Position numbers and translations under genes: made by a program
Shown: positions 6,165 to 57,391 of the stretch, in pieces
Layout of the letters: every line of letters begins with the position of its first letter
Position numbering within the stretch: position 1 is the stretch's first letter
Assembly: GCA_963681505.1 (NCBI GenBank)
Contig: OY811985.1
Coordinates: 4,795,183 to 4,859,182 of the forward strand
Length of the DNA: 64,000 nucleotides
DNA from: Eunapius fragilis
Lineage: Eukaryota > Porifera > Demospongiae > Spongillida > Spongillidae
Direction of reading: 5' to 3'
Notes under the pieces: model-generated
What the model was told of the DNA's origin: nothing
Databases searched by the model: none
Seen by the model: only the letters and a program-made list of their open reading frames with translations

Positions 6165-6977
6165 TCAGTGGTCTATTTTCAGCACGGCAATGCGATTGTT
6201 ATCTACGTCGCACACATAGACACAGTCATCCTTGTCGACTGCGAGACCAACCGCGTACCCGTTGTTGTTGAACACGGTCACGAACTCCCCCGTCGTCTTG
6301 AACACCGACACGCGGTAATTACGTCCTCCCTCTGCAATGTACAGGTACTGTTGCGACGGGTCCAGGGCGATTGATTGAGGGCAGTGAATGAGTCCGGGCT
6401 TGTCGCCTTCGGACCCAATGCATCGGATCGGTTCGTGGTCCGAGTTGAACACCTGGATGCGGTGGTTAAAGTGGTCCGCGACGTACAGGTTCCCCGCATC
6501 GTCGGCCGTGATATCGAACGGCACGTTGAATGCTCCCAGACCGTCCCCGCGGGAACCGAACGTGTCCAGAAACTGGAGCGAGTGGCGGCTGAAAACCTCC
6601 ACTCTGTGGTTCGGCCCGTCGCACACGTAAACCTTGTCTCTGACCACCACGACCCCAAGGGCCTTTCGGAAGTCCCCGTGCGCATAGCCGCTGCGCGAGT
6701 GAGTGGAGCTAATAAGAACTCCATGCGGATCAAACTTTGACAAGCCGCTGTTTTTATCCGTTACGTATATGTTGTCATCCGCGTCGACAGCCACGCCACT
6801 CGGGTAGGTGAGCGGGGTATCGAGGACCAGCAACACGTCTCCTCCTTCCTTTTCGCGAAGGGTGACCTTGTTGGTGTTGCACTCCGTGACCAGCATCTGT
6901 CCCTTGTGGGTGAAGGCAATCGCCTGGGGTCTAGAGAGGCCCGTGATCACGTCCCTCTGCGAGTCGTTTCGAATCAT
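6165..6977 (-). CDS. NHL-repeat beta-propeller protein (copy 1)
   Basis: A 270-residue intronless frame made almost wholly of NHL repeats, the six-bladed propeller known from TRIM/LIN-41 proteins. Each blade shows the usual pattern of hydrophobic strand, 'G.....D..NIYVTD..N', and next strand, for example NIYVTDKNSGLSKF, KVYVCDGPNHRVEVF, NLYVADHFNHRIQVF and CVYVCDVDNNRIAVL. NHL propellers bind RNA or proteins. There is no RING, B-box, coiled coil, signal peptide or membrane segment, so it is either a stand-alone propeller or the last exon of a longer gene. The start ATG (6975-6977) opens directly onto the first blade. It is a diverged paralogue of the gene at 9773-10600 in the same orientation, and its start faces the AKIP1-like gene 555 bp away. 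Confidence 0.85.
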   Translation of the reverse strand: MIRNDSQRDVITGLSRPQAIAFTHKGQMLVTECNTNKVTLREKEGGDVLLVLDTPLTYPSGVAVDADDNIYVTDKNSGLSKFDPHGVLISSTHSRSGYAHGDFRKALGVVVVRDKVYVCDGPNHRVEVFSRHSLQFLDTFGSRGDGLGAFNVPFDITADDAGNLYVADHFNHRIQVFNSDHEPIRCIGSEGDKPGLIHCPQSIALDPSQQYLYIAEGGRNYRVSVFKTTGEFVTVFNNNGYAVGLAVDKDDCVYVCDVDNNRIAVLKIDH

Positions 6978-7142
6978 TCTTAAACCTATATATTATTATA
7001 CTACTACTAAGTATGGCCACCGTGCGAACTTATATCAATCGAATAGGGGCGTGGCGTTACTATTGACCACCACAAGCACATGATGTACATGTGTTGCAAA
7101 TGCCACGTACGTCATCTGTATATGTATGTCTGTATAATAAAG

Positions 7143-9772: not shown

Positions 9773-10600
9773 TCAAAAATCACTAATATCTGATTTTAGA
9801 ACAGATATTTGGTTGTTCCCGTTGTCACACACATACACATAGCCATTCTCGTCGACAGCAACGCCGGCCGCATACCCGTTGCCACTAGTGAAGTCCCCAA
9901 ACGCTGACACAAACTCTCCCGTTATCTTGAACATCGATATACGACAGTTTCTTCCCCCCTCGGCGATGTACAAGAACTGACTGGTGGGGTCCAGGGCGAT
10001 GACTTGTGGGAAGTGGAGTCGGCCCGGCTTGTCTCCCTCACACCCGAACGTCCGCACACACTCCAGCTTCGAGTTGAAAACTTGGATACGGTGATTGTAG
10101 TGGTCGGCGACGTACAGATTCCCCGCCCCGTCGGTAGTGATGTCGAAGGGCACGTTAAAGGCTCCCGGACCGTCTCCGCGGGAACCGAACGTGACCAAGA
10201 ATTTGAGCGAGTGACGGCAAAACACTTGGATCCTGTGGTTGGGGCCGTCACACACGTAGACCCGGTCGTCCACAACCACGAGACCCAGGGCCTTCCTGAA
10301 GTCCCCTGGGACGCAGCTGTTGTTGGAATCAGTGGATTTTAAAAATTTGCCGTGCGAGTCAAACTTTGACAGCCCTTTTGTGCTGTCGGTGACGTAGATG
10401 TTATCGTCTTCGTCCACCGCGACGCCACTCGGGTAGAAGAAAGGATGGTTTAGCTCGGTCACCACATCACCCTGCTTGTCTCGGAGGGTGACCTTGTTCG
10501 CGTGCCACTTGCGCTCGGTAACAATCATTCCGCCCTTGTTGGTGAAGGCAATGGCTTGTGGCTTGGCTACACCGGTTATTACTTTGATAGGGCTTTCCAT
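9773..10600 (-). CDS. NHL-repeat beta-propeller protein (copy 2)
   Basis: A single-exon frame of 275 residues, counted from ATG at 10598-10600. The frame stays open a further 18 bases upstream but only to GTG. Blades include NIYVTDSTKGLSKFDSHGKF, RVYVCDGPNHRIQVF, NLYVADHYNHRIQVF and YVYVCDNGNNQISVL. It matches the copy at 6165-6977 blade by blade, so the two are tandem-type duplicates now separated by the AKIP1-like gene. No RING, B-box or membrane segment is visible. It ends 328 bp downstream of the AKIP1-like stop, in convergent orientation. The sequence before the ATG (ggtgacaggatgg) also looks like a possible 3' splice site, so a longer spliced protein cannot be excluded. Confidence 0.85.
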   Translation of the reverse strand: MESPIKVITGVAKPQAIAFTNKGGMIVTERKWHANKVTLRDKQGDVVTELNHPFFYPSGVAVDEDDNIYVTDSTKGLSKFDSHGKFLKSTDSNNSCVPGDFRKALGLVVVDDRVYVCDGPNHRIQVFCRHSLKFLVTFGSRGDGPGAFNVPFDITTDGAGNLYVADHYNHRIQVFNSKLECVRTFGCEGDKPGRLHFPQVIALDPTSQFLYIAEGGRNCRISMFKITGEFVSAFGDFTSGNGYAAGVAVDENGYVYVCDNGNNQISVLKSDISDF

Positions 10601-10618
10601 CCTGTCACCCGCGCGCAC

Positions 10619-11780
10619 ACTGGTTCTCTGTCAACTCGTGGTTACGGCGAAATATAATCTTTTACCCGCCCACCCCGTGTCCAGAACCAGTTAAACCTGT
10701 GTGGCACGTGCGGCATCAAGTCGAACAAGAATCGTAAATGACGTATTATCACGTGTGGTCCCCCCCCCCCCCCCATTACAGCATTTTCTTTGTACCATAC
10801 AACATGTGACAGTGTTGCATGGCTTTGGCTTTGGCACAGTACCCCCGACAGAAACTAAATTTCTCGAAATGCACCATTTTGTAAATAAAATTAAAAAGCC
10901 ATGACGTGTGGACGTTAAATGCTGCACATAGTATATATTATTTGAATCCGGTTCCATATTCAGCAATGGTTCAAAAAAGTATGGCATCCCACAGTGAAGA
11001 TCAACATATCACTCACTGCTATTAATTCCAAGGCAAAGGTAAAGTGACACTGCTACTCCTCAGTACCCATGCTAAGGAGGGTGCTCACCAAAATTACATC
11101 ATTCCATCCTCTAGCACACTGTCTCCAAGCCCACAACAGTCCTTGACAAGCCTGATTTTTTAAACACCCACCAGGCCAACCTGTTGCTTCCACCCTTCTG
11201 AGGAGCCACACTGGTGCCTTTAGACTGTATCACTGCAGTAATAACAATCAAAAAGTACAGCCCTTCATACTGAAGGCGCTGGTCTATCTGAGATTGCTGC
11301 TGCTGGCTAGAAAAAAAATTATGTACCTCATTTCATGCTGAATCAAATAACTCAGTCATTTTCTTGCTTTATTTGCAGAAAGCTATCTACCTTGTCTAGT
11401 TTGTCATTCGATTGCACTAAATAAAAATCATGGTGTTTGTCCTATATGTAGGATTTGTGAGACCTCAAGATGAATCATTGCATGCCAGGATATACAGCAA
11501 GTGGTCCCTTGAATTGATATATATGTATATATATAATTAACATATATATATATATATATATCATGTCCCATGTCCCATTGATGCCACTGACACAGTTCTT
11601 CTGGTTGATGCAAACAATGCTTTCACTCTACTCAACCACCAGACTGCCCCCCCCCCCCCATCCCCAAAATATCCGACATATGTACCATTCTATTGCTCTT
11701 CAATACATACAGGGAACACACTTAGCTGGTCGACACCACGATACTGTTCCAAGAGGGAAAATACTCAGGGTGATGCACTC
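10619..11780. other. Intergenic, no supported gene
   Basis: Contains a C-run at about 10760-10774, an AT-rich stretch with TA repeats (about 11515-11562) and a C-run near 11646. No open frame with recognisable protein features on either strand. Confidence 0.5.
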
Positions 11781-13320: not shown

Positions 13321-13469
13321 TGCCTTCTATGTTGAATAATGATTAGACTGGTATTCATGTATCCTTTTATAATTCCACGTATTCATAAATATTGATGTGT
13401 AATATTCTAACAACAATCCAATAATGAATCAGTACAATGTATGTTAGTTAATTTTTAATAGTTAATAAA

Positions 13470-14363
13470 ATGGCTACCTCCTCCAATGTTGACAAGGACG
13501 CAGCAGCATACGAATACTTGTGTAGGCTAGAAGAAGCAAAGAAGTAAGCTGCTTATGTTGCATGCCGAGGTGGTTGAATCCAGTGCGCAGTTTCATGGTG
13601 CTATATATACGCAGTGAAATAATTCGTCGTAAAATGCGGGCGAACGACACTATATGTGAAGGAGAATTTCCTAGTATTGTTCGGGCTGTACTTAATATTC
13701 TTCTCTTCAGATGGATGGAGGCAATACTAATGGAGACCCTCCCTCCTGTAACCGAGCTTGAAGATCGCCTTTCGAACGGCGTTTTACTGTGCGCTCTGGG
13801 AAAGAAGCTGCTGCCGAATGATCCCATGTGGAAAAAAGTTTTCGATCAGGATCAGGCGAAATTCAAAGTAAGGTTTTCTTCCCTCCCGTTATTATTCATG
13901 TAATGAAGCCGAACAATTTTTCTGGCTGCACTGACCGCTGCGAAACTTTATAGTGTGCATGTGTACATAAGTGGCACTACCTAGCTAGCAGAACGTGCGG
14001 CTGTAGTGTGTGCCATGTTTGCAACACACAGGTGGGACAATAACATCCGTGGTAATGTGTCAATGTGTGTTCGTATCGTTATTTGTTTTGAAGAATTTTT
14101 TCCCCTGTTATCAAATACAGGCGAAGGGTCTAGACTATAGGCACACAGATAACGTGAACTTCTGGATAACTGCGCTCAAAATGGTTGGACTTCCAAGAGT
14201 AAGTGTCTGGTATGTGGATTGAAATCGTTTCGTCATTGTGTAAAGAAATAGAGTGTGGTGATATTTATAAATGATTCGTCCACTGACTCAGTATTTTGTA
14301 CATGCCTGTCCAACCATTTAAAACATCACCCCTTTCTCTTTTCCCTTGTTTGTCTGTGTGTAT

Positions 14364-14435
<72 letters not shown>

Positions 14436-17400
14436 CTCCAGTTCTTCTTGCCGTCAGTAGAAGACATCTACCATAAAAAGAACATTCCCAAGGTGATCTA
14501 CTGCATCCATGCCCTGAGGTAAGTCACAGTGTTTTTCCCAAGGTGGGAAGTATGCATTGCTTGACTATTGCCCTTTAGTTTGTTTCTAAACATAGTTATT
14601 GTACTGTGTGCACTGTGGTGTTTGTATGCACATGCACACTCACTTACCACACATGCACTCACTCACCATACATGCACACTCACTCGCCACACATGCACAC
14701 TCACTTACCACACATGCACTCACTCACCACACATGCACACTCACTCGCCACACATGCACACTCACTTACCACACATGCACTCACTCACCACACATGCACA
14801 CTCACTCGCCACACATGCACACTCACTTACCACACATGCACTCACTCACCACACATGCACACTCACTCGCCACACATGCACACTCTCCACACATGCACAC
14901 TCCACACATGCACACTCACTCACCACACATGCACACTCACTCACCATACATGCACACTCCACACATGCACACTCACTCGCCACACATGCACACTCACTTC
15001 ACCACATATGCACAATCACTTCACCACACATGCACTCTCCACACATGCACATTACCTCACCACACATGCACACTCAACACACATGCACACTCAACACACA
15101 TGCACACTCACTCACCATACATGCACACTCAATGCACACTCACTCACCACATGCATACTCAATCACCACACATGCACTCACTCACCACACATGCACACTC
15201 ACTCGCCACACATGCACTCACCACACATACACACATGCACACTACATGCACACTCACTCACCACACATGCACTCACTCATCACACATGTTCATACTCACT
15301 CACCACACTTGCACACTCACTCACCACACATGCGCACCACACATGCACTCACCACACATGCACACTCACTCACCACACATGCACACTCACTCACCACACA
15401 TGCACTCATTCACCACACATGTTCACACTCACCATACTTACCACACATTTACCCAATCTTACGTGAACACTCATCACACCCACACATTCCCCTTGCTCCC
15501 TCCCATGCTCACACACATACCCACTTGCTATTATGCAGTTACTTCCTCAAGAAGCAGAATCTTGTTGGCTTTTCTGTGAGGGACCTAACAAATGGCAAAC
15601 TGACCTTTTCCAGTATGCATGATTGTGTGTGGGTGTGGACTGGTGTGTAAGTGTGGACTGGTGTGTAGGTGTGGACTGGTGTGTAGGTGTGGACTGGTGT
15701 GTAGGTGGACTGGTGTGTAGGTGTGGACTGGTGTGTAGGTGTGGACTGGTGTGTAAGTGTGGACTGGTGTGTAGGTGTGGACTGGTGTGTAGGTGTGGAC
15801 TGGTGTGTAGGTGTGGACTGGTGTGTAGGTGTGGACTGGTGTGTAGGTGTGGACTGGTGTGTAGGTGTGGACTGGTGTGTAGGTGTGGACTGATGTGTAG
15901 GTGTGGACTGGTGTGTAAGTGTGGACTGGTGTGTAGGTGTGGACCGGTGTGTAGGTGTGGACTGGTGTGTGGGTGTGGACTGGTGTGTAAGTGTGGACTG
16001 GTGTGTAGGTGTGGACTGGTGTGTAGGTGTGGACTGGTGTGTAGGTGTGGACTGGTGTAGGTGTGGACTGGTGTGTAGGTGTGGACTGGTATGTAGGTGT
16101 GGACTGGTGTGTAGGTGTGGACTGGTGTGTAGGTGTGGACTGGTGTGTAGGTGTGGACTGGTGTGTAGGTGTGGACTGGTGTGTAGATGTGGACTGGTGT
16201 GTAGGTGTGGACTGGTGTGTAGGTGTGGACTGGTGTGTAGATGTGGACTGGTGTGTAGGTGTGGACTGGTGTGTGGGTGTGGACTGGTGTGTAAGTGTGG
16301 ACTGGTGTGTAGGTGTGGACTGGTGTGTAGGTGTGGACTGGTGTGTAGGTGTGGACTGGTGTGTAGGTGTGGACTGATGTGTAGGTGTGGACTGGTGTAG
16401 GTGTGGACTGTGTGTAGGGGTGGACCGGTGTGTGGTATGTAGGTGTGGACTGGTATAATTTGTGGGTGTGAACTGGTCTAGCGTGTATGTGTGGACTGGT
16501 TAGTGTGTAGTATGCATGGATGTGGATTATGTGTGGGTGTGGACTGTGTGAGAATGGGGACAGGATGGCGACTGTGAAGATGTGGATTGAGTGAGAATGG
16601 GACTGAGAATGGTACTGTGAGAATGGTACTGTGAGAATGGTACTGTGAGAATGGCACTGTGAGAATGGCATTCTTGTTTGTTGGAAACATTTCTGTGCCG
16701 CATTGAGATATTGAAAACAGATATAACTATTTGGGGAGAAATGCATAAACATCTACATTCTCTGATCTCATAAATAATTGTATGGTTAAACATCTTATTT
16801 GTAGCACCCCCTTCCCAAGAAATTCTCCAATACTTATAATTTGATTGCCTGAGTCATAGAATAGACCAGCATACACCATGTATAGAATAGACCAGCATAC
16901 ACCATGTATAGAATAGACCAGCATACAAATAGAATAGACCAGCATACACCATAGAATAGACCAGCATACACCATGTATACAATAGATCAGCATACACCAT
17001 GTATACAATAGACCAGCATACACCATGTATACAATAGACCAGCATACACCATGTATAGAATAGATCAGCATACACCATGTATACAATAGACCAGCATACA
17101 CCATGTATACAATAGACCAGCATACACCATGTATAGAATAGACCAGCATACACCATGTATACAATAGACCAGCATACACCATATAATGGTTGTCATCTCA
17201 CAGGTGAGGAGATCAAGCAGACTTCCCAGAACCTAAGCAAAGTTGATACCCTTCCTTCTTTCAACTCTCTGGGAGACCTTGTGGAGGAAGAGGTAGGATC
17301 ATATAAGTGCTTCAGTGCCTAAGTCCTTGTGAGCATGCGTGGGTCCTTGGGTGATTGAATGCTTGCATGGGTCCTTGGATGATTGTGTAAGTATTTTTTA

Positions 17401-18124
17401 TTGCATAGCTGCATGTATGGAGTGTCAGGTCTCCAGAAAAAAATCCCTAATTTTGAGGGGCATTCATTAGAATAAATATGGCTTTGCTTTCTGTGTCAAC
17501 CACCAGCTCCAGTACAAGGCATTGGGGCTTGTGGAGAGCGTGCACGTGGAGGAAAACAAACCAGATCCCGGGTCACGCGATTTGCCACCCCCCACGCCTG
17601 AATTCGATGATCCTCAGTACATTCCCATCTCAGCGGTACCATTGCTCTATCTGCCCTGCAAGACAGCGGGTATTTATGTTTCTCTGTATGCTAAGAAGCC
17701 GTCTGGGGTGCAGAAGAACGGACTCAACACTGAGTGTGAGTTGTGAAAGAGTGGGGAGTGCTCTAATTGGGATGTGCTGTGATAGCAAAATCTGGGCGTA
17801 AAAGTTAGATGCCAGACCTGTTTCGCTTGGCGGTGATGTGATTCATCTTTCAAACGGGTCTGGGGCCGAGACTAGTGTTGGTGGTGGTGATGGTAGTGTG
17901 GATTCAAGTATGCAGTGTGGCCATCTTGGTTGTGGGGGAAGGAGAGGGGATGATGTCAGAGTTTGGTGGTGAGGTCATTCCCCAAAGGGCATTCCTACAG
18001 GAAACAGAAACTATACAGGACCTTGCCTCTGGGCTCAGGAAGTAGGGCATTGTTCATGGTGTTGTGGTTGTACATTGTGATGAACTTATTTTGCAAATAA
18101 AATGTGACCTTGTTCTTGCTCATT

Positions 18125-18155
<31 letters not shown>

Positions 18156-21149
18156 GAGAGGGGTATGAGGGTTGTGTTAGTGGGTTGTGTGTGGTGCAAA
18201 ATAAAAAACCCTGTTCCCTTGTACATAAGGACATAAGGTAGAATGTATAGGAAATGGAGGGAGGTGTAGGGAGGGATGGAGTGAGGAGGTGTAGGGAGGG
18301 ATGGAGTGAGGAGGTGTAAGGAGGGATGGAGAGGGGAGGTATAGGGAGGGATGGAGAGGAGGTGTAGGGAGGGATGGAGAGGGGAGGTGTAAGGAAGAAT
18401 GGAGAGAGGAGGTGTAGGGAGGGATGGAGAGAGGAGGTGTAGGGAGGGATGGAGAGAGGAGGTGTAGGGAGGGATGGAGAGTATTAATTCTTAACTAAGT
18501 CATAACTCATCCCATCACTACATGAAGCAATGAACACCTTACCTCGTTTTCCCTCAGTGGGGAGGATGCTGGAGAAGATAAATGAAGCAGTCGACAGGGG
18601 AGATGTCCTTGGAGCCTTTGAGGGTCTTAGGAGCAAGGCCCTCAACCTTCCCTTTGTGTTCAAGGACCACCCTAGTACCTACTTTGCTGCTTTACTGGAG
18701 GAGCAAAGTAATGGCATTCCCAACAACGTCCTGGTTAGTGGTGTGTGTGCATGGTGACTATGTGTGTGTGACTATGTGTATGTGTGTGTGTGTGACTTTA
18801 CGTGTGTGTGTGCATTAATATTTATGGCACGTGCATTGTGCATTCTTGAGGGGTGCGAATGGGTGGGTAGAAATCATGCATCAGAATATAGATGTCGGTC
18901 CCCCTCCCTCTGAAGTCTGACTGTGTGTATCCATATGAGGAAATTTCTTGATCTGTCTATGTTTGATACATGTACATCTTCTTTCTCACCCTCCCCCCCC
19001 CCCCCCCCCCCCCAACCCTTCCTGTCTACTGTTCTGTTAAAATTTGGGCAGTGTGTATACTCTGGTATGACTCGTGAGAAATGTGACGCAATACTGGAGG
19101 TGCAGAGGTCAGTTAATTAACCCCATTCATCTCCACCCTCTCACATCCTTTCCCTAACAACAGTTACGGTGCCTATCTTATCTGCGAAAAAAAGACAGAG
19201 CCAGGGACCACCATCTGTGCATTCAGGTGCATTTCCTCTTTACTTTCATCTTTTTAAATATTTTAACTCTTGCACAGAGAGTTGTACCACTAGGGGCAAC
19301 TGATGAGTATCAGACACGCATGTGAAGTGACTTCTGCATGTTCATAGGCACACATGCACTATGTGTACATGAAATGTGTGCCTATCCACTCCCTCCCCAT
19401 GCCTCTTACAGCCCCCACTCCCTCCCCATGCCTCTTACAGCCCCCACTCCCTCCCCATGCGTATTACAGCCCCCACTCCCTCCCCATGCCTCTTACAGCC
19501 CCCACTCCCTCCCCATGCCTCTTACAGCCCCCACTCCCTCCCCATGCCTCTTACAGCCCCCACTCCCTCCCCATGCCTCTTACAGCCCCCACTCCCTCCT
19601 CATGCCTCTTACAGCCCCCACTCCCTCCCCACTCCTCTTACAGCCCCCACTCCCTCCCCATGCCTCTTACAGCCCTCACTCCCTCCCCATGCCTCTTACA
19701 GCCCCCACTCCCTCCTCATGCCTCTTACAGCCCCCACTCCCTCCCCACTCCTCTTACAGCCCCCACTCCCTCCCCATGCCTCTTACAGCCCCCACTCCCT
19801 CCTCACTCCTCGTACAGCCCCACTCCCTCCCCATGCCTCTTACAGCCCTCACTCCCTCCCCATGCCTCTTACAACCCCACTCCCTCCCCATGCCTCTTAC
19901 AGCCCCCACTCCCTCCCCATGCCTCTTACAGCCCCCACTCCCTCCCCATGCCTCTTACAGCCCCCACTCCCTCCCCATGCCTCTTACAGCCCCCACTCCC
20001 TCCTCATGCCTCTTACAGCCCCCACTCCCTCCCCATGCCTCTTACAGCCCCCACTCCCTCCCCATGCCTCTTACAGCCCTCACTCCCTCCCCATGCCTCT
20101 TATAGCCCCCACTCCCTCCCCATGCCTCTTACAGCCCCCACTCCCTCCCCATGCCTCTTACAGCCCCACTCCCTCCCCATGCCTCTTACAACCCCCACTC
20201 CCTCCCCATGCCTCTTACAACCCCCACTCCCTCCCCATGCCTCTTACAGCCCTCACTCCCTCCCCATGCCTCTTACAGCCCCCACTCCCTCCCCATGCCT
20301 CTTACAGCCCCCACTCCCTCCTCATGCCTCTTACAGCCCCCACTCCCTCCCCATGCCTCTTACAGCCCCCACTCCCTCCTCATGCCTCTTACAGCCCCCA
20401 CTCTCTCCCCAAACACATGACACATCATTGGTTTAGCATCGTTGTAAACATACGACCACATAGACGTGCACAAACACTTGGCTGAAGTGCCACACCCACT
20501 CCTCCCCCCCCCCCCTTTTATACCTGCCACCACATGGCCATCACGTACTGTAAAGCCAATCACAATGGAGGGAGCTTAGGTTCTGTCTAATTAACTCTGA
20601 GTACAAATGACAGAAACGTGTATTGTTTGAAATGTCCTGTTTTTTTTTTGTTGTTGTTGTTTTGTTGCAGGAGCCAGAGTGGAGTGAAGCACTGGAAGAT
20701 GATGAGTGAGAATGGTTACTACTTTTGGAATGGAGCAACATATGTTTTGAATGAGTTTGTGGAGGTATGTGTGTGTGCATACGTGTGTGGATGTGCATAT
20801 GTGAGTGTACGTGTGCATATTGTGTGTGCGTGTGCATATGTGTGTGCGTGTGCATGCATGTTTGTGGTCATGTGTGACATGGGTGTGTGTGTGTGTGTGT
20901 GCAGGGGTGGGGGCATTGTTATGCTGCCTTGCATAGCTCGCACGCCCTAAGATCCTCTCGTTCATCAACTAGCATTTCCTAGCGTCCATCTCCAATGCTG
21001 CCAAAGTTGATACCTTCTCTGCTGTCAGCTCAACGCTCCAAATGGTGGTGGACAGTGAAGATGTGAAGGCAATCAAGGTACAGGTTGATGGAATAAGCAG
21101 TGGTTTTTGAACCTTAAAGGACGAGTATTCCCTGTGAGACCATAACTGC

Positions 21150-21214
<65 letters not shown>

Positions 21215-21609
21215 TCTGTGTATTGTGTGTGTATGTGTGTGATGATAGTGGATCTGGCAGTTCCTAAACTAATGATAGCTGTGGGTGGTGGCTTGGCTTC
21301 CTTCACATAAAGGAGCATTGCAAACAAGAGGTGTGCACTCCTCTGTCAATGGGTTGGTGTAAGGTGCAGAGACTCCACACTCTTTCGCTTATGGTTATAG
21401 TGGGAGGGGGAAAGTATGGAAACTGTTGTGTGTGTGTGTGTACTGTGTTAATGTTACCTCTCCTGAAAGGTTCTTGAAGGTCTTCGTAAAGACAAAAGGC
21501 TTACCTATGGCCAGCTTTTCTCAGTGGTCAGGGCTGTAAACTCTACCATCAGAGAGAGCAAGAAGATACCTGCATCTGGTGTGAGTGTACTTCCATTGGG
21601 TGTGTGCAT

Positions 21610-21673
<64 letters not shown>

Positions 21674-24600
21674 CACACACATGCGCACACACACACACAC
21701 ACACACACTGTAACATGATGTGCTCATGTGACTAACGATGATCTGCCTCTCCCAGCAGCCCAAATACCCCAATTGGGATTGCTCAGTAAGACTCCTTATC
21801 CAATGTGACGTGCACCATGTTCACTTGGATATTTTCCCTGCAGAAGGTAGTCTCCATGAACAGGATTGATGCAGAGAGTGTTTTGAACAAGGAAGGAGTG
21901 TAAGTTGAGCATGATGGAGATACTGTGGTGAGGTCGTGTCCCCATCCTCAGTGAAGGTTGTCACTTTGGTTAGTGTGCAAGACATCATTGGCATCATACT
22001 ATGTATTTCACTGGAAATATCGTGTTAACCTTTTGGTTACTAATGGCACAGTCTTTAGAATAGTGCTGTTTATTCTTTGGCTGGCAACAGTGTAGGGATA
22101 TTGTTTTAACCCTTTGAACCCCTCTAATGTGGACACTGTCGGGACCCACCTCAGTTGTCCTGATTATTGAGGTGTCTGCATTTCAAGGGTTCATAATGTA
22201 TGTCAAACAATGAAATTTTTGGGATTATGGTCTTAGTGCAGGAACATGCTACATATCCTTACATGTATCTGCTTACCTCCTTGCAGACCTGGTTCCTTTC
22301 TCTTACGTAAGAGTGATACGACTCTTGGTGACTTCGCCCTAGCTTTCAGAACTGCGAAGGAAGTTCGTCACTGGAAAATAGTCAGCAAAGAGCAGAAGTA
22401 CTTTGTCTACCCGAGACCCAACCCTTACAATTCATTGGAAGAAATTGTAGCAGTATGTTGTGTGTGCGAGTGTGGTATGTGTGTGTGCATGGTGTGTGTG
22501 TGCATGGTATGTGTGTGTGTAGTATGTGTGTGCATTGTGTGTGTGTGTGTGGTATGTGTGTGTGTAGTATGTGTGTGTATGTATGTGGTATTTGTGTGTG
22601 GTATTTGTGTGTGCGTGTGTGTGTGCATGTGTTTGAACTGTGTGGTTGTGCTTAGTGATACATTTTCATAGAATATTTGTATGATCCCATTGTGAGCAGT
22701 TATATAGGGTTAGCATCAGTTTACAGATGTCTGTGACTTCGTTAAAGTCATAGCAGCTTGTAAAAGTGTCCTAGTACATGTCACCATCATGCTGTAGGTC
22801 ATGTAAAAGTGTCCTAGTACATGTCACCATCATGCTGTAGGTCATGTAGAAGTGTCCTAGTACATGTCACCATCATGCTGTAGGTCATGTAGAAGTGTCC
22901 TAGTACATGTCACCATCATGCTGTAGGTCATGTAGAAGTGTCCTAGTACATGTCACCATCATGCTGTAGGTCATGTGGAAGTGTCCTAGTACATGTCACC
23001 ATCATGCTGTAGGTCATGTAGAAGTGTCCTAGTACATGTCACCATCATGCTGTAGGTCATGTAGAAGTGTCCTAGTACATGTCACCATCATGTTATAGGT
23101 CATGTAGAAGTGTCCTAGTACATGTCACCATCATGCTGTAGGTCATGTAGAAGTGTCCTAGTACATGTCACCATCATGCTGTAGGTCATGTAGAAGTGTC
23201 CTAGTACATGTCACCATCATGCTGTAGGTCATGTAGAAGTGTCCTAGTACATGTCACCATCATGCTGTAGGTCATGTAGAAGTGTCCTAGTACATGTCAC
23301 CATCATGCTGTAGGTCATGTGGAAGTGTCCTAGTACATGTCACCATCATGCTGTAGGTCATGTAAAAGTGTCCTAGTACATGTCACCATCATGCTGTAGG
23401 TCATGTAGAAGTGTCCTAGTACATGTCACCATCATGCTGTAGGTCATGTAGAAGTGTCCTAGTACATGTCACCATCATGCTGTAGGTCATGTGGAAGTGT
23501 CCTAGTACATGTCACCATCATGCTGTAGGTCATGTGGAAGTGTCCTAGTACATGTCACCATCATGCTGTAGGTCATGTAGAAGTGTCCTAGTACATGTCA
23601 CCATCATGCTGTAGGTCATGTGGAAGTGTCCTAGTACATGTCACCATCATGCTGTAGGTCATGTAGAAGTGTCCTAGTACATGTCACCATCATGTTATAG
23701 GTGTTATGAAACCTTGCTCACAGTTAAACTGACAAGCTTGGGTAGTGGTGGGTTGGAAAAAATATCTGATTACAATAAGATTCAATGTACGTCTTTACTC
23801 TTCCCCATTGCATCACCACTTTGCCCTCTGTACGTGCTGCAGCATTTTCAAGAAGCTGTCGGCTTGGAGACAAAGCTTGTAATGACTCCTCTGGAACTTA
23901 AGAATGACAAGTCACCAATGCCAGCATTACCAGTATTGGCACCAGAGGCAGAGAGACGACACAGGATACCAGAGAGGGCACCAGAGAGGGCACCAGAGAG
24001 GGTACCTGAGAGGGCACCAGAGAGGGTGGTACCAGAGAGGGCACCAGAGCGGGTGGTACCTGAGAGGGCACCAGAGAGGGTACCTGAGAGGGTACCAGAG
24101 AGGGCACCAGAGAGGGCACCAGAAAGGGCACCAGAGAGGGTACCAGAGAGGGTACCAGAGAGGGTGGTACCAGAGAGGCCAGATAGGCTATCAGAGTTGC
24201 TAGATAGGCAAAATGCACCATCATTGTTCTCTCCTGTAAAGAGTAAGTGTGCTGGACTGTGTTTAATTAATGGTGTCATGAACACATGAAGTATTAATCT
24301 CCGAATTGTGACCAGACCAAGCAATTTAGTGTTATTATTAAAGTGATTTTATATCGTGACCAGTTATTAATAGTATTATGACCATGTATTAGAGTTACCC
24401 CAGCATGTAGTGGTGCTATGCCTTTGGCCCTATATTCTTTCATCAAATATTTCTACATTGCCCACAGTGGAACCCACTCCATCATTGTCAAAGCTGAACC
24501 CAGCCAACCTCACCAGTTGGACGGTGAACGATGTGTGCCAATGGCTGCTGGAACAGGACTTTGGCCAGTACATAGACGTCTTCAGACACAATGCTATAGA

Positions 24601-24721
24601 TGGAGAGTGTTTGTTGACCCTGGACAATGAACTCCTCAAGACGGACTTGGGTATATCCACGCTAGGCCATCGCTCTAAAATAGTCAAACGTTTAGACGAG
24701 CTTAAAGCGCGTGGCAGGTGA
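13470..24721 (+). CDS. IQGAP-like CH / tandem SH2 / SAM multidomain adaptor
   Basis: Seventeen exons whose phases all close: 13470..13543, 13711..13867, 14121..14198, 14442..14518, 15539..15612, 17204..17292, 17507..17735, 18558..18733, 19052..19107, 19164..19226, 20671..20764, 20973..21077, 21470..21580, 21844..21899, 22287..22452, 23843..24242, 24468..24721; 752 residues. Residues 1-153 match the IQGAP N-terminus and CH domain (AAAYEYLCRLEEAKKWMEA, GLDYRHTDNVNFWITALKMV). Residues 150-183 keep its next block (FSSEEIKQTSQNLSKVDTLP). Residues 262-315 are one IQGAP-type repeat (INEAVDRGDVLGAFEGL). SH2-1 is about 319-392 (YSGMTREKCDAIL, GVKHWKMMSENGYYFW), SH2-2 about 465-545 (GSFLLRKSDTTLGDFALAF, EVRHWKIV), PER-rich repeats about 575-645, SAM about 680-752 (WTVNDVCQWLLEQDFGQYI). 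No WW, IQ, GAP or RGCT region remains. SH2-1 has Cys for the FLVR Arg. Likely a cytoplasmic phosphotyrosine adaptor linked to actin (inference). Confidence 0.85.
14352..14434 (+). repeat. (TG)n microsatellite next to an exon
   Basis: An almost pure TG tract of ~80 bp in intron 3 ends only a few bases before the 3' splice site at 14440-14441 (tggctccag). It therefore stands where a polypyrimidine tract would be expected. Confidence 0.95.
14630..15440 (+). repeat. CACACATGCACACTCACTCA-type minisatellite
   Basis: Some 800 bp of imperfect units built from cacacatgcacactcactca/ctcgc/ttac variants fill intron 4. Open frames across it are repeat artefacts. Confidence 0.95.
15630..16500 (+). repeat. 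18-bp minisatellite
   Basis: About 44 copies of gtgtggactggtgtgtag in intron 5, beginning only ~25 bp after the exon 5 donor. Long frames are open on both strands because the unit is a multiple of three. Confidence 0.95.
16855..17185 (+). repeat. 26-bp minisatellite
   Basis: About 12 copies of a 26-bp unit (accagcatacaccatgtata plus gaatag/caatag) in the same intron 5, ending just before the exon 6 acceptor (17202-17203). Confidence 0.95.
18238..18482 (+). repeat. ~23-24-bp purine-rich minisatellite
   Basis: About ten copies of a unit like ggaggtgtagggagggatgg agag in intron 7. The strand is G/A-only over long stretches, so triplex or G-quadruplex folding is possible. A G-run lies just upstream (about 18139-18156). 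Confidence 0.9.
19386..20410 (+). repeat. 29-bp minisatellite resembling repeated 3' splice sites
   Basis: About 35 copies of a 29-bp unit (actccctccccatgcctctt then acagccccc) in intron 10. Each copy contains a pyrimidine-rich run followed by CTTACAG, so it resembles a 3' splice site. The true exon 11 acceptor follows at 20669-20670. Confidence 0.95.
21152..21240 (+). repeat. (TG)n microsatellite
   Basis: A TG tract of ~60 bp in intron 12, continuing into less regular TG-rich sequence. Confidence 0.9.
21611..21712 (+). repeat. (CA)n microsatellite
   Basis: About 95 bp of CA in intron 13, starting ~30 bp after the exon 13 donor. Confidence 0.95.
22453..22640 (+). repeat. TGTG(C/T)ATGGTATG-type degenerate repeat
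   Basis: A GT-rich, loosely repeated tract starting at the donor of exon 15. Confidence 0.85.
22760..23703 (+). repeat. 43-bp minisatellite
   Basis: About 22 head-to-tail copies of a 43-bp unit (gtagaagtgtcctagtacat, gtcaccatcatgctgtaggt, cat) in intron 15. Copies differ at only one or two positions (gtaaaag/gtagaag/gtggaag; one gttatag variant near each end), which points to recent homogenisation. Confidence 0.97.
23967..24178 (+). repeat. Coding minisatellite (PER repeats)
   Basis: In exon 16 a ~12-bp unit, ccagagagggca/gta (Pro-Glu-Arg-Ala/Val, with occasional Val-Val insertions), is repeated about 17 times in frame. It gives a linker of alternating acidic and basic residues between SH2-2 and the SAM domain. 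Confidence 0.95.
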
Positions 24722-26494: not shown

Positions 26495-29372
26495 CTACAC
26501 ACAGTTCTGTTCAAAAGAGAATAGATGAGGTTGAACAGAGTTAGGTGGGGGAGTAGATAACCACACCTCCTGATCCCCTGACAGCACCTGAAATTGAACA
26601 CGCATCAAGATTAGAACATCCTCGCATACCATAAATACACCACCCCCACATATTCAGTGTACATTCCATTGCACAGGCACGCAAACACACACCAATGCAG
26701 GCGCATGCGTGCGTGCACACCCACTCACACCTTCCACTCACCAGTGGATTTCTCCCAGCAAAGACACTGAATTGGTTCAGCCTTTCCCTGAGGTGCTCAT
26801 AGCTCGAGAGGTTGGCCCCATCAAGTGGCACATACCCAGCCACCTTGCTGCTCACTTCTGAAGACACGCTCAAACACGACGAAAGGTGGTCAAAGATGCG
26901 CCTGATGATAGCCAGCCCTAGTCCGCTGTAAGGCTCAAAAGGAATGATGTCCTTGAGTCCAACCGTGGCCCCTTTGTGGCTGAAGGTGACTCCATCCATA
27001 CCAACCACCGCCTTGGCAATATCTTTGATAGGAAACAGGCTAGAACTTGATCTGAGGGGGTGGTATTTGACATCCGAGGGGTGGAGGAAAAACTCGTGAA
27101 CCTGGGTAAGGGAGGAGTAGTCCTCTTTGGTTTTCAAGGACACCTGAAGGAGTGAGGAGAGAGTGTGTGCCATCTGAACTATAGAACCAGGGTGAGAGGC
27201 AACGAGGATCACCAGCTGGGTGCACTGCGGTGACAGCTCTACCAGGCACTTCACTCCCCTTGGGTTCACCAAAAAGACCCCATTCTTCCAAACGGAGCAC
27301 TTCTCTTGTATAAAAGAGAGCGTTTTAGGGCCGCCAGGTTGGAGGGAGTCATCAGTCGGGGCAAAGAAGAAGGAGACTAAGATTCTTATGATGAGGACAT
27401 GAAGGAACAGCAGCGTGAACGGCTGCTTCTCATCAGCGCACACGAGCGTCCACCCAGCAGAGCAGGTCAACTCTTCATCATGCTCGCACCAAACGGTGCC
27501 TGAGTCTTCGACATTCACCAAACCGGGGAAGAACAGAGAGCCCCCGTTGCCCGTGGGTGGTAGGTCCTGCCCTGGCTCGTTGGACGTGAATGGGCCCTTT
27601 GGGGTCAACACCTCCAGGCAACACTCCATGCTCGTCAGGATGTGGACCAGTATCTCGTCTGGGTAAGCGCTGAATTCGTGCGCAAACTGTTCCAAGGCGA
27701 TCACACCCACGGGCGTCGCCAGGTAACGGTGCTGCCGGTACCCTAGCGGGGCAAATATCGCGCCGATCACGTCTTCCAAGAAGCCCCTCTGGTCGATCAC
27801 GATGCAACTCTTTGCCGAGTGGCTGTAGAAAAGGATGTGACCTTGGTCGGCGAGCTCGACACAGATGTCACACAGGTCCGCCTCGCTTTCAGGCAAAATG
27901 CTGGCCAGGTAGGTGGTACGCTTCTCTTCCGACGAGTGGTGACCCTTCATCAGCTCAAACAGCTCCATCTTCTCCCTGGCCAGCACCTTATCGGCACGGA
28001 GCTGCTCCCTCAGCTTTGCAAGGGTGATGGCCCCACAGCCTTCAAAGGTGTTCGACAGCCACAGCCAGAAGCAGTGGCTGTAGTAGTAGCGCTGGGAGGT
28101 GAAGCCCGCTCTCACCTCCTCGCAGGCCACCTTCAAGCACTGGCATAGGAGGTCCAGGCCACTAGACGAGGCCTTCCGACAGTCCATGGGGATGAACTCG
28201 GTCACGCGCAGCACTGCCGAGGAAGGGTGCGCGCGACCGAGAGATTCCAAATCGAGCCACCCGCAGGGGTCCACTCCCTGCGCCTTCGCGGTATCGCCGC
28301 GGCTCCCGACAACGATCACGCGCGCTTCCCCGCTGGGCAGGCTGAAGGCGTTTGACAGGAAACCGAGCCAGTAGAACACGTCCCTCTCTACGGCTTCTTT
28401 CCCGCTGGATAGGTCCGTGACGACGACAAACACGGGGAGAAGGGAGCAGATGGCGTTTCTGAGGAAGGCGGCTTGGACCGCGTGGAAGTCGGTGTGTCCT
28501 GCAAAGTCGTATAGGGCCACGTGCCCCACCTGCTTGTTGACGAGCGTGTGGTGGGCAATGCCCACAGTGGCGGGGTCCCAGGACTGCACCACCCTCACCC
28601 CCGTCGTCCCCCCCGAAGAGGAGGAGGAAGAGGAGTCCGACTTCCCGAGCGTCTCCTTCTTCAGGGCCCTGATGAGGCTGGTCTTACCGGCTGAGGCGCT
28701 GCCCACGACGAAGAGCTTCACGGGGAGAGAGCTGGCCGCGGACGGTTTGGGGAGGTACTTCTTGTACGTCTTGTGCAGGTACGTCGGGTCGGCGCCGTGT
28801 TTCAGCAGCTTCCCGATCATGCTGGGCTTGTCCGTGAGCGACAGGGGTGCGTCCCCGCCGCCGTCGGGCGTGTTGGGGTTACAGTGGCGTTCGGCCAGGA
28901 GGTAACCGGCCGTGTCCAGGTGGTTCATGGCCACCGCGGTGTGGAGCGGGTTGCGACCGATGTTGTCAGTGTATCCCTCGGGCGCGCACCCGTGGTCCTC
29001 GACCAGGTACTGCGCTATGGTGGCCCGACTGGCCAGGTGGAGCGGAGTCTGGCCCTTCTGGTCGGGGCAGTTGGGCTCGCACTGGTACTTTTGCAGGAGG
29101 AGGCGGACCACGTTGAGGTGGCCCGTCTCGCAGGCAAGGTGGAGCGGGGTCTTGCCCTGTTGGCTCTTGCTGCGCGGGTCGCACCCGCCCTTGTCGACGA
29201 GGTACTGGACCACGTCGCAGTGGCCGCCGGAGGTTGCGTAGTGGATGGGGGAGAAGTGGAGGACCCCTCGCTTGGTGTTCAGGTCGACGTTAGCGGCGTC
29301 AACGGAGGTGACCAGTTTCTGAACGGTGGCCAGGTCGCCCGTCATGCACGCATTCAGAAGACGGTAGTCCAT
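26495..29372 (-). CDS. Ankyrin-repeat Roco (Roc-COR) GTPase
   Basis: Two exons: 26742..29372 (877 codons, ending Asn-Pro-Leu before GTGAGT) and 26495..26587 (acceptor AATTTCAG; reads VLSGDQEVWLSTPPPNSVQP to a TAG stop), about 907 residues. Residues 1-205 carry ankyrin repeats (KTPLHLACETGHLNVVRLLL, QTPLHLAS, RNPLHTAVAMNHLDTAGYLL). Residues ~216-400 form a Roc GTPase with a P-loop GSASAGKTSL (~224-233), DFAGHTDF (~289-296) as the DxxG switch, and VVGSRGD in the base-recognition position, as in DAPK1-type Roc domains. The remainder is COR-like. No kinase, LRR or recognisable death domain is visible. Roco proteins are GTPase switches that dimerise through COR. There is a poly-Ser stretch (~246-253). 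The exon is much more GC-rich than its surroundings. Confidence 0.88.

Positions 29373-30456: not shown

Positions 30457-57391
<26,935 letters not shown>

Follow-up and report, generated by a model that had tools for sequence, protein, structure and literature searches.

A putative IQGAP-descended adaptor gene with two SH2 domains and a SAM domain in the sponge Eunapius fragilis

IQGAP is a conserved scaffold for actin and GTPases. Here we describe a gene of the freshwater sponge Eunapius fragilis (assembly GCA_963681505.1, contig OY811985.1) in which the front of an IQGAP is joined to two SH2 domains, SH2a and SH2b, and to a SAM domain. The gene lies at 13470-24721 on the plus strand of a 64,000-nucleotide stretch of chromosome 15 (C15:4795183-4859182), which we call the window throughout. 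An early-branching animal appears here to carry SH2 domains in the same chain as an IQGAP-type front, with the GTPase half dropped. We consider it likely that this is one gene, that it arose from an IQGAP copy by exon shuffling, and that it acts as a kinase-recruited actin/SAM adaptor.

The closest described systems are IQGAP1 and the other metazoan IQGAPs, including the complete, canonical IQGAP that the same sponge encodes on contig C22. They resemble the fusion gene in their single IQGAP-type CH domain, linker, one repeat, and intron positions and phases. They differ in that the fusion gene is without the WW, IQ, GAP-related (GRD) and RasGAP C-terminal (RGCt) parts and carries two SH2 domains and a SAM domain. 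Neither SH2 nor SAM is among the seven IQGAP domains given in excerpts of PMC13299636. Human IQGAP1 is reported to meet tyrosine-kinase signalling in trans, recruiting SH2 proteins through phosphorylated Tyr1510, and to bind the receptor phosphatase PTPmu (PMC10120595, in excerpt), whereas the sponge gene has its SH2 domains in cis. IQGAP chimeras of another kind are already known: Dictyostelium IqgD likewise combines IQGAP parts with foreign modules, but it keeps the GRD-RGCt-CT portion and has borrowed fimbrin-type CH domains in front, whereas the sponge gene keeps the front and has its back replaced (PMC13299636, in excerpt). Among the titles and abstracts listed by our literature searches, none describes an IQGAP-SH2 or CH-SH2-SAM fusion.

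An earlier reading of the window, made from its letters alone (the sequence-only reading), had proposed 17 exons encoding 752 residues, and our rebuild reproduced that model exactly in its coordinates, length and domain order. The coding sequence of 2259 nucleotides gives 752 residues and a stop codon with 0 internal stops, the introns are GT-AG in 16 of 16 cases, and all splice phases close. Exon ends were placed by eye, and the rebuild is to be read as a re-derivation that checks consistency, not as an independent gene-finder prediction. An in-frame stop lies upstream of the start codon, at 13449. When six frames were compared, the codon-usage score was highest in the frame of the model for 15 of the 17 exons. 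The exons are as follows.

Exon 1, 13470-13543, plus strand: start codon and N-terminus as far as LEEAKK; its intron is in phase 2, like that of the canonical IQGAP.
Exon 2, 13711-13867, plus strand: IQGAP-type CH domain, with Pfam and PDB matches.
Exon 3, 14121-14198, plus strand: IQGAP-type CH domain, with Pfam and PDB matches.
Exon 4, 14442-14518, plus strand: IQGAP-type CH domain (VIYCIHALS), with Pfam and PDB matches.
Exon 5, 15539-15612, plus strand: end of the CH block and IQGAP-like linker, from the alignment to IQGAP1 and the intron comparison.
Exon 6, 17204-17292, plus strand: IQGAP-like linker (SEEIKQ...LVEEE); the alignment with human IQGAP1 extends to residue 184.
Exon 7, 17507-17735, plus strand: linker rich in proline and bearing several tyrosines (QYIPI, LYLPC, IYVSLY); homology undetected.
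Exon 8, 18558-18733, plus strand: IQGAP repeat, 176 nucleotides, entered in phase 1 and left in phase 0, from profile, pairwise and exon comparison.
Exon 9, 19052-19107, plus strand: first part of SH2a, 56 nucleotides, entered in phase 0 and left in phase 2, from Pfam.
Exon 10, 19164-19226, plus strand: SH2a with YLICEK (cysteine at the FLVR arginine site), from Pfam and the SH2 alignment.
Exon 11, 20671-20764, plus strand: last part of SH2a (VKHWK...NEFVE), from Pfam.
Exon 12, 20973-21077, plus strand: HF end of SH2a, then linker between the SH2 domains.
Exon 13, 21470-21580, plus strand: linker between the SH2 domains.
Exon 14, 21844-21899, plus strand: first part of SH2b, 56 nucleotides, phases as in exon 9, from the model rebuild.
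Exon 15, 22287-22452, plus strand: core of SH2b with FLLRKS, from Pfam and from the SH2 search of the whole genome (44.8 bits).
Exon 16, 23843-24242, plus strand: HF end of SH2b, linker and PER repeat (12-base-pair units).
Exon 17, 24468-24721, plus strand: SAM domain and stop codon, with Pfam and PDB matches.

A Pfam scan of the 752-residue product, a check that the sequence-only reading had itself suggested, places the CH, both SH2 and the SAM domains above their cut-offs. The CH domain is found at residues 21-130 with 49.6 bits (cut-off 26) and SAM_1 at residues 685-748 with 63.6 bits (cut-off 23). The two SH2 stretches reach 78.4 bits jointly, and singly 25.7 for SH2a and 61.7 for SH2b (cut-off 21). 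The same scan gave no match to WW, IQ, RasGAP or RasGAP_C at E<=1 and no SH3 domain, and an NCBIfam search gave no match. Without WW, IQ, GRD or RasGAP C-terminal parts, the gene is not an IQGAP by architecture; it is best classed as an SH2-SAM adaptor of IQGAP descent that lacks these four IQGAP features. The sequence-only idea of a domain-shuffled adaptor, with SH2, SH2 and SAM joined to an IQGAP-derived front, is borne out in its architecture.

The front of the gene is, by its sequence and introns, of IQGAP descent in exons 1-6 and 8. All five distinct PDB sequences matched by the CH block at E<=0.001 belong to the IQGAP family (IQGAP1 three times and rng2 type twice, one of these so named). 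Residues 11-184 align with human IQGAP1 (2rr8) past the CH domain at E 5.4e-48. Genome searches covered the assembly of 218,937,333 bases in 24 contigs, and the canonical full-length IQGAP was found elsewhere in it, on the minus strand of C22 at about 1909700-1930210. It consists of CH exons, a RasGAP_C part at 1910580-1911078, and between them WW, IQ and GAP-related blocks, these last located with a human IQGAP1 sequence. In the genome-wide RasGAP_C search four candidates were scored and two matched, both on C22. Introns 1-6 of the window gene are identical to those of the canonical gene in residue and phase (2, 0, 0, 2, 1, 0) at six of six comparable positions. The comparison comprises introns 1-6 and the ends of exon 8; no canonical exon preceding repeat 1 was found, and intron 7 enters with its acceptor side.

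Exon 8, with 176 nucleotides, corresponds to the canonical repeat-1 exon of 179 nucleotides: both are entered in phase 1 and left in phase 0, and the IN of the repeat stands at the same offset. Against a profile of sponge repeats and human IQGAP1 repeats, exon 8 scored 21.6 bits, and the best of 2000 shuffles 5.3. With a sponge-only profile the figures were 13.9 and 6.6 bits (again the best of 2000 shuffles). In pairwise comparison its score was reached by one of 2000 shuffles against sponge repeats 1-2 and by none of 2000 against the human repeats. The IQGAP-only PDB matches, the six shared introns and the exon 8 match together argue for IQGAP descent and not for a generic CH domain. The sequence-only reading had claimed IQGAP homology beyond the CH domain and a single IQGAP-type repeat. 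The former holds through the 2rr8 alignment to residue 184, the six introns and the exon 8 repeat, and the latter through the profile and shuffle scores of exon 8.

Exon 7 finds no support as diverged IQGAP sequence: its score against human IQGAP1 was equalled by 1360 of 2000 shuffles. Residues 154-318 searched against the PDB gave two chance-level matches only (E 0.9 and 1.1). The exon 7 tyrosines (QYIPI, LYLPC, IYVSLY) are, speculatively, possible phosphorylation sites.

By eye, exons 12-13 might be taken for a further IQGAP repeat, as KVDTFSA there resembles KVNTFSA of human IQGAP1. We rejected this reading: profile scores were -4.0, -2.2 and 1.8 bits, and shuffles scored as well in 121 of 2000 cases against the human repeats and in 91 of 2000 against sponge repeats 1-2.

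Over the CH block the window gene is identical to the sponge IQGAP at 84 of 171 positions and to the human protein at 84 of 171, and the sponge and human IQGAPs are identical to each other at 119 of 172. In a quartet of the window gene, sponge IQGAP, human IQGAP1 and Rng2, the best topology places the window gene outside the pair of sponge IQGAP and human IQGAP1. The approximately unbiased (AU) test rejects none of the three topologies (p 0.86 for the outside position, 0.21 with sponge IQGAP, 0.10 with human), and the grouping with human is excluded only by the bootstrap proportion from resampled estimated log-likelihoods (bp-RELL). Long-branch attraction may be at work in this quartet, which bears on the age of the duplication that gave rise to the IQGAP copy.

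Past the intron that follows the repeat-1 exon, the window gene and the canonical IQGAP diverge. The two SH2 domains found there are akin to each other. Both SH2a (exons 9-11) and SH2b (exons 14-15) have phase 0 at either end, and they share three boundaries in all: a phase-0 start, a phase-2 intron after 56 nucleotides, and a phase-0 end before HF. A tree of 27 SH2 domains separates SH2a and SH2b from the other 25 with 87.3 in the Shimodaira-Hasegawa-like approximate likelihood ratio test (SH-aLRT) and 95 in the ultrafast bootstrap (UFBoot). It was built from the 2 domains of the window gene, 20 from this genome (of 70 SH2-search matches) and 5 human ones; of 20 stretches fetched, 12 were used and 8 dropped, namely the seven partial ones (L062-L068) and L060, which seems non-coding at its end. 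One of the partial domains, L064, seemingly has an intron near the same place, one nucleotide off, and by eye a stop codon past the core of the match. The SH2 cassette, symmetrical in phase 0-0, was apparently duplicated later on, as the intron positions and the tree make probable.

The origin of the cassette was sought in the same genome. SH2b matched 15 stretches, two of which are SH2b itself; the 13 others are 28-44% identical to it, four of them being Src-type kinases by eye, and no donor was found among these 13. The first 557 residues of the product gave 28 genome matches. Apart from the gene itself these were the canonical IQGAP, further SH2 stretches and a weak stretch on C1 (E 0.45), with no second fusion or paralogue among them. 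Prokaryote genome contigs scanned with the same 557 residues gave 37 pattern matches, of which none was confirmed. On the minus strand at C9:163945-171628 we noted three clustered SH2-kinase reading frames, Src-type by eye, as possible kinase partners.

Among solved structures, the top PDB match of SH2b is p120RasGAP (RASA1), with 62.6 bits over two stretches, followed by SHP2 with about 55 bits. RASA1 also has two SH2 domains per protein, and differs in its RasGAP part, which the sponge gene is without. Its C-terminal SH2 is 33.8% identical to SH2b over 71 columns; SH2b has histidine at betaD4, and alanine where the RASA1 domain has a blocking tyrosine (PMC7530234, in excerpt; SH2 alignment). 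SH2a matched weakly, to RASA1, GADS and GRB2 at about 28 bits, with GADS and GRB2 giving its longest PDB alignments. These adaptors share with the sponge gene the logic of a non-catalytic SH2 adaptor; it differs from them in having a CH and a SAM domain and no SH3 found. The nearest solved SAM domains are those of liprin-beta1 (57.2 bits), SARM1 (44.7) and Shank2 (38.0), whose host proteins differ from the sponge gene. Exon 17 alone, modelled by AlphaFold2 from a single sequence, reached a mean predicted local distance difference test score (pLDDT) of 53.9, too poor to judge polymerisation or pairing; a Foldseek search with this model gave SARM1 SAM on top at E 0.057 and none at E<=0.001, too weak for use.

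The sequence-only reading also held that the protein reads phosphotyrosine. This is well grounded for SH2b, which alone keeps the FLVR arginine (FLLRKS), but not for SH2a, which has a cysteine in its place (YLICEK). On the SH2 alignment we assign arginine at betaB5, arginine at alphaA2, histidine at betaD4 and lysine at betaD6 to the SH2b pocket. According to excerpts of PMC7530234, these positions matter for phosphotyrosine binding, only 3 of more than 120 human SH2 domains lack the conserved FLVR arginine, and JAK-type SH2 domains such as that of TYK2 mediate interactions without it.

We infer the following order of events for a single gene that arose by exon shuffling. A copy of an IQGAP gene would have supplied exons 1-6 and 8, that is the CH domain, linker and first repeat, with exon 7, of undetected homology, between them. 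A symmetrical phase 0-0 SH2 cassette would then have been added within the phase-0 intron that follows the repeat-1 exon, and later have been duplicated into SH2a and SH2b, which is the simplest reading of the phases. The downstream WW/IQ/GRD/RGCt region would have been replaced by the linker with PER repeats and the SAM domain. Spliced as one transcript, as we infer, the gene most likely functions, to judge from its domains, as a phosphotyrosine-recruited actin/SAM adaptor. SH2b may dock on a phosphotyrosine of a receptor, an adhesion protein or a Src-type substrate, and SH2a may strengthen the docking or bind without phosphotyrosine. The CH domain of IQGAP type would attach F-actin, and the SAM domain would pair with SAM partners or with itself. 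The result would be a kinase-recruited actin adaptor without GAP-related and IQ parts.

Several observations weigh against this account. Exons 7, 12 and 13 are without detected homologues; the codon usage of exon 13 is a tie (0.20 in the frame of the model, 0.21 on the reverse strand), and that of exon 16, with the PER repeat, is -0.18 in the frame of the model and -0.11 in the best frame. SH2a scores weakly in the Pfam scan and has a cysteine at the FLVR arginine site. The two SH2 domains are just 31.9% identical over 72 columns, SH2a has one extra intron, and SH2b scores slightly better against certain genomic Src-type SH2 domains (one 35.5% identical) than against SH2a; for these three reasons the duplication rests on the intron positions and the tree. 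Finally, a shorter SH2-SH2-SAM product could conceivably begin at Met324, where SH2a starts.

This last point would also fit two adjacent genes merged by the model, one of them an IQGAP cut down to its N-terminal part (exons 1-8), the other an SH2-SH2-SAM adaptor (exons 9-17), as would the short, repeat-rich intron at the exon 8-9 junction. We regard such a merger as improbable. The donor phase of exon 8 is that of the homologous IQGAP exon, and a conserved donor calls for a downstream partner exon; moreover, the phase-0 join of exons 8 and 9 is in frame, and the two parts stand just 318 base pairs apart with neither AATAAA nor ATTAAA between them.

Alternatively, the same fused gene may be a competitor of the canonical IQGAP, sharing its CH ligands without the GAP-related part, rather than an adaptor recruited by phosphotyrosine. 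Only the CH domain and one repeat are retained, and a complete canonical IQGAP is present in the same genome, as this would have it; the phosphotyrosine-pocket residues of SH2b are, however, conserved, which a pure decoy would not need, and we think such a role quite unlikely. Very unlikely is a decaying, non-functional IQGAP duplicate that captured SH2 and SAM exons: the divergence of the CH block from two IQGAPs that are much closer to each other, the FLVR arginine lost in SH2a and the introns swollen with minisatellites would suit it, but 752 codons are free of stops, codon usage favours the frame of the model in the great majority of exons, and the repeat unit of exon 16 is a multiple of three, unlike those of several intron arrays, with periods of 26, 29, 43 and 61 (one further intron array has a period of 18, also a multiple of three).

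Beyond the adaptor recruited by kinases, a bolder proposal can be made, which we offer tentatively and hold to be doubtful. The gene may be the founding member of a separate class of sponge scaffolds that is conserved in other species too and in which phosphotyrosine reading has taken the place of the small-GTPase/calmodulin half of IQGAP. Phosphotyrosine would be bound by SH2b, possibly also in the exon 7 tyrosine cluster of the protein itself (QYIPI, IYVSL), which would then act as a latch that switches the CH domain on or off. The partner of SH2a would be unphosphorylated, and the SAM domain would form higher-order assemblies where kinases activate actin sites.

The fusion may wire tyrosine-kinase signals directly to the cell skeleton. 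From the introns the exon-shuffling step can be read in detail: which intron and which phase were involved, and the probable later duplication. Should the gene prove to be expressed and conserved, it would offer a clear instance, in sponges, of domain shuffling that has rewired phosphotyrosine signalling onto the cytoskeleton.

Repeats are found in both exons and introns of the gene. The PER repeat of exon 16 is encoded by a coding minisatellite with a 12-base-pair unit (window 23968-24164), whose length possibly varies among individuals. Intron 10, between the SH2a exons 10 and 11, holds about 35 copies of a 29-base-pair unit at 19386-20411, and the splice-acceptor-like CCTCTTACAG occurs at 29 places in this array; acting as decoy acceptors within the SH2a segment, these sites may give rise to alternative splicing.

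On the minus strand at about 32934-50440, facing the SH2 adaptor gene, lies what is probably a receptor tyrosine phosphatase gene: by eye, a long array of fibronectin type III (fn3) domains leads to what looks like the beginning of a protein-tyrosine phosphatase domain. Of three stretches put to Pfam, one matched Y_phosphatase (32934-33266, 37.1 bits) and one fn3 (36491-36928, 51.7 bits), and the third, 34683-35183, gave no match. Block repeats occupy 36592-46126 and 46393-50057 of the array, with spacings of about 2.24-2.78 kilobases and 0.83-0.88 kilobases; many copies are 94-100% identical and others 66-87%, which suggests partly recent tandem duplication. Also on the minus strand of the window are an unbroken frame of about 940 codons at 26541-29372, in which Pfam finds ankyrin repeats together with a Roc GTPase domain, and two NHL beta-propeller frames at 6168-6992 and 9776-10630, which score 93.6 and 101.7 bits in Pfam.

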